DNA of 64,000 nucleotides. Source: Azospirillum thiophilum. GTDB lineage: Bacteria > Pseudomonadota > Alphaproteobacteria > Azospirillales > Azospirillaceae. A program made the translations under genes and the position numbers. The stretch is taken from positions 310,001 to 374,000 of the forward strand of contig NZ_CP012401.1 in assembly GCF_001305595.1 (NCBI RefSeq), given 5' to 3'. Positions 51,348 through 52,448 of this stretch are shown here, piece after piece (within the stretch, counting starts at the first letter, position 1; each line of letters starts with the position of its first letter). The notes below the pieces were generated by a model. It ran no database searches. It worked only from the letters and a program-made list of their open reading frames with translations, and had not been told where the DNA came from.

Positions 51348-51489
51348 AAAAAAGGCCGCTGAATACAGCGGCCTTGAGTTTAGGGAGGAAACGCCCAAGA
51401 AGGGCGACGCAGCAATCGCTTGCTGCACTGCAACAGTACCAGAAGCGGGAGGTGCTGCAACCTCCAAAGCCGGCCCCTGCGTGGGGCCG
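51348..51489 (-). ncRNA. Candidate structured small RNA
   Basis: On the minus strand five perfect stem-loops follow one another. They are CGGCCCC/GGGGCCG (51489-51471), GGAGGT/ACCTCC (51465-51448), GCAGCAA/TTGCTGC (51426-51409), CGCCC/GGGCG (51406-51392) and a terminator GGCCGCTG/CAGCGGCC (51373-51354) with a T6 tail. Between the last two is an unpaired TTTCCTCCCTAAA, an anti-Shine-Dalgarno motif. No good ORF covers it. It lies upstream of, and divergent from, the trehalose-phosphatase gene. No known family was recognised with confidence. Confidence 0.6.
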
Positions 51490-51647
51490 AAGCTTTTAGG
51501 GGAAAATGTTGCCGATCGGCCACAGCATGGCCATTCCACGCGTCCGATCCGGGCGGTTCCACGGGCGGTTCCAGGGTTCCGGCCGTTTCCATCCTGCGGC
51601 GTGCCGGCCGGTCGCCGCCAGTTCAGGCAACGGCGCGAGGATTCTCC

Positions 51648-52448
51648 GTGACCTTCTCCACCCCATCCGCCTTTGCGGACTTCGATGCTTTCACCGCGGC
51701 TCTCGCCGGCCGCAACCCTGCCCTGTTCCTCGATTACGACGGCACGCTGGCCGCCATCGCCCCGCGGCCGGAACTCGCCGTGATGCCGGAGCAGGCCCGT
51801 GCGGTGGTGCGGCGGCTGTCGGCACTGTGCCCGGTGGCGTTCGTCAGCGGCCGCGATCTCGACGACCTCGCCGGGATGGTTGCGGTCGACGGGCTGGTCT
51901 ATGCCGGCAGCCATGGCTTCGACCTGCGCGGGCCGGACCTGCGCCGTCAGGTCGGGGTCGAGTATCTGCCCGACCTGGACGATGCCGAACGGCATCTGCG
52001 CGGTCATCTGGACGGCATCGCCGGCACGCTGGTCGAGCGCAAGCGCTTCGCCATCGCCATCCACACCCGTCAGGTCGCCCCGCCCGACAAGCCGGCGGTC
52101 GCCGACGCGGTCCGCGAGGCGGTGGAGACCCGGCCGCGCCTGCGCATGACGGGCGGCAAGGAGTTGTTCGAGCTGCGCCCGAACCTGCCCTGGGACAAGG
52201 GCCGTGCCGTTCTCGCCCTGCTGGAGGCGCTGGGACTGGACGGGACCGGAACCGTGCCGATCTATCTCGGCGACGACGAGACCGACGAGGATGCCTTCCG
52301 CGCACTGGCCGGACTAGGACCGGCGGCGGGCATCGGCATCCGGGTGATGGAAACCCCCGCGCCGACCGCGGCCGGCTGGAGCCTGCACGACCCCGACCAG
52401 GCCGCGGCCTTTCTCGGCCGGCTGGCGGACTGGCTTGCCGCGGGTTAA
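51648..52448 (+). CDS. otsB: Trehalose-6-phosphate phosphatase
   Basis: OtsB removes phosphate from trehalose 6-phosphate in osmoprotectant synthesis. The 266-residue product has HAD motif I FLDYDGTLAAI (nucleophile Asp29), motif II FVSGRDLDDL (Ser67), and motif IV YLGDDETDEDAF, with the OtsB-type ELRPNLPWDKGRAV. The start is a GTG at 51648 with GAGGA 6 nt upstream. No otsA is adjacent. The leader region carries the ncRNA candidate on the other strand. Confidence 0.92.
   Translation: MTFSTPSAFADFDAFTAALAGRNPALFLDYDGTLAAIAPRPELAVMPEQARAVVRRLSALCPVAFVSGRDLDDLAGMVAVDGLVYAGSHGFDLRGPDLRRQVGVEYLPDLDDAERHLRGHLDGIAGTLVERKRFAIAIHTRQVAPPDKPAVADAVREAVETRPRLRMTGGKELFELRPNLPWDKGRAVLALLEALGLDGTGTVPIYLGDDETDEDAFRALAGLGPAAGIGIRVMETPAPTAAGWSLHDPDQAAAFLGRLADWLAAG

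Follow-up and report, generated by a model that had tools for sequence, protein, structure and literature searches.

MmgR of S. meliloti, a small RNA of the αr8 family (RF00519), is a single-copy RNA of ~77 nt with three hairpins. The PhaR protein of this species binds two operators, ATATTGTGCAGTGCAGCAACA at SMa1961 and CAATTGTGCACCGCAGCATTA at mmgR, the latter at -13; mutating the operator abolishes the EMSA shift (PMC12542648). In Caulobacter crescentus the αR8 RNAs SisA–SisD carry the 10-mer UUUCCUCCCU and a terminator, and several siblings occur in one genome; no common upstream motif was reported for sisA–D (PMC12559287). Anti-Shine-Dalgarno (anti-SD) silencing has been demonstrated for SisA of Caulobacter: its 10-mer pairs with the 5' UTR of CCNA_03574, ahead of the start codon, a point mutation abolishes repression, a compensatory mutation restores it, and pairing with the sponge CrfA is Hfq-dependent (PMC12559287). 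AbcR1 and AbcR2 (αr15) are partly homologous to RF00519 and form a separate family of longer RNAs (114–120 nt) with two CU-rich anti-SD segments and transporter mRNAs among their targets (PMC7143759).

The locus analysed here lies in a window of 64,000 nt from Azospirillum thiophilum (contig NZ_CP012401.1, positions 310,001 to 374,000) and encodes, on the minus strand, a predicted RNA that closely resembles the first two of these systems. It shares with MmgR the length, the three hairpins, the RF00519 match and a PhaR-type operator next to the start (-13 in mmgR), but it is one of about seven copies and lies beside otsB instead of the gene for N-formylglutamate amidohydrolase (FGase). With SisA–D it has in common the 10-mer, the terminator and the presence of several siblings in the genome; unlike the sisA–D genes, several Azospirillum sibling groups have a PhaR-type operator in common. 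The anti-SD mode of action would also be that of AbcR1/AbcR2. The parts of the RNA and its surroundings are as follows.

51348–51426, minus strand: αr8 small RNA (RF00519), predicted transcript of ~79 nt, start placed by conservation (Rfam; fold z -6.9; 45/45 orthologs)
51409–51426, minus strand: 5' hairpin GCAGCAA-GNRA-TTGCTGC, 7-bp stem invariant in nearly all 45 orthologs (fold)
51392–51406, minus strand: second hairpin CGCCC-TTCTT-GGGCG (ortholog and family alignments, fold)
51382–51391, minus strand: seed, or anti-SD 10-mer, UUUCCUCCCU, single-stranded in the 79-nt fold
51348–51375, minus strand: intrinsic terminator, 10-bp stem and U run (compensatory changes)
51421–51435, minus strand: predicted PhaR (AniA)-type operator TGTTGCAGTGCAGCA, overlapping the -10 and the start, core TGCAGTGCA at 51432–51424
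51433–51438, minus strand: putative -10 TACTGT (TAATTT in many orthologs), from the consensus
51455–51460, minus strand: putative -35 TTGCAG, TTGC kept in most orthologs and changed in ~10
51448–51465, minus strand: hairpin 2 of the preliminary description, an inverted repeat across the -35, judged to be a DNA feature (upstream of the predicted start; z -0.9)
51466–51497, plus strand: hairpin 1 of the preliminary description, a terminator-like stem with T4–T8, otsB-linked
51506–51525, no strand assigned: conserved dyad CTGTGGC-N6-GCAACA, ~-89 from the predicted start (43/45 orthologs)
51648–52448, plus strand: otsB-like gene (trehalose-phosphate phosphatase), a divergent ORF named from the preliminary description and sequence features

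Family identity, conservation and siblings

The preliminary description of this DNA had proposed a small RNA of the trans-acting alphaproteobacterial type, ending in an intrinsic terminator and bearing an anti-SD segment, to be compared with the Rfam families and searched for compensatory changes. The comparison bears this out: RF00519 (suhB/mmgR, αr8) matches positions 51412–51339 with 63 bits (cut-off 41, E 1e-10), spanning model positions 1–77 of 77. Judged by its sequence, the minus-strand segment at about 51426–51348, ~79 nt long with three hairpins, is a member of the αr8 family, a new member of a kind already known. Its 10-mer (51391–51382) is identical to the αR8 10-mer of PMC12559287; it is internal and single-stranded, lies 3' of a weak hairpin and is directly followed by a Rho-independent terminator. 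Among 31 aligned family members from many families, UUUCCUCCC is invariant, and in the terminator stem 7 of the 10 pairs show double compensatory changes, so that the stem is preserved across the family. Rfam matches to BjrC1505 and anti-hemB, both weak and below the cut-off, cover the same terminator and were set aside.

The FGase gene is the usual neighbour of αr8 RNAs, chiefly in single-copy species (PMC12559287). No such gene adjoins the window copy, but this neighbourhood is a tendency and not a definition, and its lack is not disqualifying because species with several copies normally have some of them at other places (PMC12559287). The genome (7.6 Mb, 8 contigs) contains five RF00519 members above the cut-off and two sub-threshold matches with seed and terminator, L006 (with UUUCCUCCCU) and L007 (with AUUCCUCCCU), that is, about seven αr8 siblings, the window copy included; a further candidate, L008, is without the 10-mer and was left out of the count. 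The sibling at C1:596196–596270 adjoins an FGase gene (C1:595237–595950) and is a different copy from that of the window.

The window copy was found in all 45 Azospirillum genomes searched. The RNA is near-invariant in the alignment of these 45 orthologs, and the loop of the 5' hairpin is either GCGA or GAGA, both of the GNRA type. An exact-pattern scan for this copy yielded 31 records, nearly all named Azospirillum. In the main text of the small-RNA paper on A. brasilense a suhB/mmgR homologue is not named.

Predicted promoter region and PhaR-type operator

Upstream of the RNA, a conserved TTGC (51460 onward) and TACTGT/TAATTT (51438–51433) are separated by 16–17 nt. As a putative -35 and -10 they point to a start at ~51426, which would give a 79-nt RNA; the start site is a prediction from conservation. 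The -35 is imperfect, with TTGC altered in ~10 of the 45 orthologs, and no consensus promoter came out of a simple sigma-70 scan. A sigma-54 promoter at CTGGTAC-TGTTGC was also considered and rejected, the GG-GC spacing being too short as judged by eye.

Two further elements of the region vary in sequence. The inverted repeat at 51448–51465 reads GGAGG/CCTCC, GGGGG/CCCCC or GCGCGG/CCGCGC depending on the lineage and is often still complementary, as if structure rather than sequence were kept around the -35. The dyad at 51506–51525 is found at -89 to -94 in 43 of the 45 Azospirillum orthologs, among them the ones that lack otsB nearby; its arms are variable but complementary (TGTTGC-N6-GCAACA or TGTGAC-N6-GTCACA), and it is likely to be a regulator site.

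The pattern TGC-R-N-Y-GCAGCAA lies over the -10 and the start in 45/45 orthologs, only its centre being variable, and TGCRNYGCAGCAA was found in the same 45/45. It corresponds to the PhaR (AniA) motif YGCRNYGCR, which the core TGCAGTGCA (51432–51424) fits. A PhaR gene is present in the genome (C1:1594050–1594361, 159 bits), and the locus therefore has both features of a PhaR regulon member, a palindrome near the -35, -10 or start and a PhaR gene in the same genome. An extended PhaR motif (TTATGYTGCRNYGCARCAT-like) precedes five of the six phasin genes, and PhaR-type motifs are also found at two other sibling groups of Azospirillum; siblings L004 and L006 have no evident operator. These motif statistics for the Azospirillum genome come from pattern searches and individual loci.

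The class-wide sample consisted of 142 genomes, 66 of which had RF00519 at E <= 1e-6, and the motif was sought at 61 seed-bearing loci outside Azospirillum. YGCRNYGCR was present at -95..-35 in 38 of the 61 loci, compared with 3.8 in shuffles (maximum 10 in 300) and 3–8 in flanking windows. PhaR was found in 53 of the 57 genomes searched; the motif was missing from all four PhaR-less ones (one-sided p 0.017, genomes treated as independent), and it was absent from 19 of the 57 loci counted as from PhaR genomes. At seven distant αr8 loci, PhaR-type sites occur in pairs ~21 bp (two helical turns) apart, which suggests paired binding at these putative sites.

The sequence TGC-N3-GCA might instead belong to the promoter or the 5' hairpin of a genuine αr8 RNA, or be the site of another regulator. 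Since the right half-site overlaps the arm of the 5' hairpin, its conservation may partly come from the RNA; of the 38 loci, about half likewise have a right half that doubles as the 5' arm of a 7-bp or longer stem (mean 7.4 vs 5.3 in shuffled sequences). The left half-site, however, lies upstream of the predicted start and is nevertheless kept in 45/45 orthologs around a varying centre. The same motif at the phasin genes, its absence from 4/4 PhaR-less genomes and the EMSA result for mmgR in S. meliloti also speak against this explanation, which we regard as rather unlikely.

PhaR control of the αr8 RNA is the preferred reading of the motif. Its class-wide association with αr8 loci extends the single published case known to us and may be new. 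A broader proposal has in our opinion an even chance of being correct: control of αr8 RNAs by PhaR, which senses the stored carbon polymer PHB, would be ancestral in Alphaproteobacteria, with the operator residing inside the DNA of the first hairpin, and in Azospirillum, where the RNA has multiplied to about seven siblings and at least three of them have sites, the status of the carbon store would gate anti-SD silencing of many uptake genes.

Candidate targets and predicted mechanism

The sequence GGGAGGAAA followed by ATG within 1–9 nt occurs at 29 sites in the genome, and the reversed pattern at none. Twelve of the 25 GGGAGGAAA-ATG genes searched encode substrate-binding proteins, as opposed to one of 20 for the control AAGGAGAC-ATG (p 0.0015, with one control SD and small numbers); the twelve fall in five Pfam groups (DctP, Peripla_BP_6, NMT1, SBP_bac_1 and Peripla_BP_4). 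Another control, AAGGAGGT-ATG, had most of its matches inside coding sequence, and AAGGAGAC-ATG was used in its place. From their start regions we infer that these twelve genes are the best target candidates, and other anti-SD RNAs of the AbcR type could act on the same GGGAGGAAA sites. The strong bias of GGGAGGAAA-ATG starts to periplasmic substrate-binding proteins may reflect a regulon of an anti-SD RNA. Two of the 29 sites, one on replicon C1 and the other on C5, lie in stretches that contain GGGAGGAAAGCATGGCTG and are almost the same, so that a repeated element is probable.

The start regions of the phasin genes in this genome have no clear match to the seed. For this reason, unlike for MmgR, for which an effect on phasin has been reported, such an effect is not predicted here.

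We consider it likely that the locus encodes an αr8 RNA of ~79 nt which silences the mRNAs of transporter binding proteins by Hfq-aided anti-SD pairing and is itself repressed by free PhaR. The RNA would run along the minus strand from 51426 to 51348 and would consist of the 5' hairpin, the short second hairpin, the free UUUCCUCCCU and the terminator. Its 10-mer would pair, most likely with Hfq, with Shine-Dalgarno sites of the GGGAGGAAA type and block translation of mRNAs rich in those for periplasmic substrate-binding proteins of ABC and TRAP transporters. Free PhaR would repress the promoter through the operator across the -10 and the start, and uptake of PhaR by PHB granules would release it.

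Extent and classification of the RNA

In the preliminary description, the whole 142-nt segment 51348–51489 was taken for one RNA with five perfect stem-loops, the last being a terminator with U6. A script search located all five on the minus strand (51489–51471, 51465–51448, 51426–51409, 51406–51392 and 51375–51352), with U6 directly 3' of the last one. Such a combination is rare: counting hairpins that do not overlap and have a stem of 5 bp or longer and a loop of 3–8, five are found in 0.15% of the 142-nt segments of the 64-kb window, with a mean of 1.17 per segment. The arms of hairpins 1 and 2 vary between lineages, often remaining complementary, as would be expected of a longer RNA starting near 51490. 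The fold of the 142 nt is indeed more stable than that of shuffled sequences (z -5.6), but this excess comes from the left 79 nt (51426–51348, z -6.9), whereas the right 63 nt (51489–51427) have no such advantage over shuffled sequences (z -0.9). In addition, the RF00519 model is only 77 positions long.

The state of the anti-SD segment depends on the form considered. It was described as free, which holds for the 79-nt fold, where UUUCCUCCCU is unpaired, but not for the minimum free energy fold of the 142 nt, where its CCUCC(C) part pairs with the GGAGG that belongs to hairpin 2.

Hairpin 1 is followed by T4–T8 on the plus strand vs T2–T3 on the minus strand. With its plus-strand T run it is present in nearly all otsB-linked orthologs and is absent from the three that retain the RNA without a nearby otsB, indicating that it belongs to otsB and not to the RNA. 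The 142-nt RNA is hence very unlikely, and the number of hairpins in the transcript is most likely three, hairpin 1 being a plus-strand terminator and hairpin 2 lying across the -35. The 142-nt segment is two things, the αr8 RNA on the left and promoter-side DNA on the right.

Membership in the AbcR (αr15) family could be argued from its partial homology to RF00519, its CU-rich anti-SD segments and its transporter mRNA targets (PMC7143759), all the more as the list of candidate targets obtained here is also rich in transporters. AbcR RNAs, however, are of 114–120 nt and have two anti-SD segments (PMC7143759); the window RNA has one, an exact αR8 10-mer, at a predicted length of ~79 nt, and aligns end-to-end with the 77-position model, making this assignment most improbable.

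Relation to otsB

The 5' end of the αr8 RNA is ~220 bp before otsB, and the RNA is transcribed away from this gene. Homologues of otsB were found at 42 of the 45 ortholog loci, and the RNA persists in the three genomes where no otsB was found beside it; in at least one of these, the place close to the RNA is taken by the small gene located next after otsB in the window. An effect on trehalose synthesis, suggested in the preliminary description, is unsupported. A local regulator of otsB, acting as antisense to its leader or by transcriptional interference across the divergent region, would fit the divergent arrangement in 42/45 orthologs and start sites probably at most 220 bp apart with a conserved dyad between them, but is scarcely plausible, given that the RNA does not overlap otsB, that the plus-strand terminator at 51466–51497 would terminate any otsB message whose start lay so far to the left as to overlap it, that it is kept without otsB and that its six siblings are located elsewhere.

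Significance

The analysis addresses which signals αr8 RNAs respond to, and which genes they control, beyond the rhizobia. If the reading preferred here is true, a small operator would tie the carbon store of the cell to broad silencing of uptake genes. Azospirillum is a plant-growth-promoting genus that stores PHB, and the logic linking PhaR and αr8 RNAs would bear on root colonisation.
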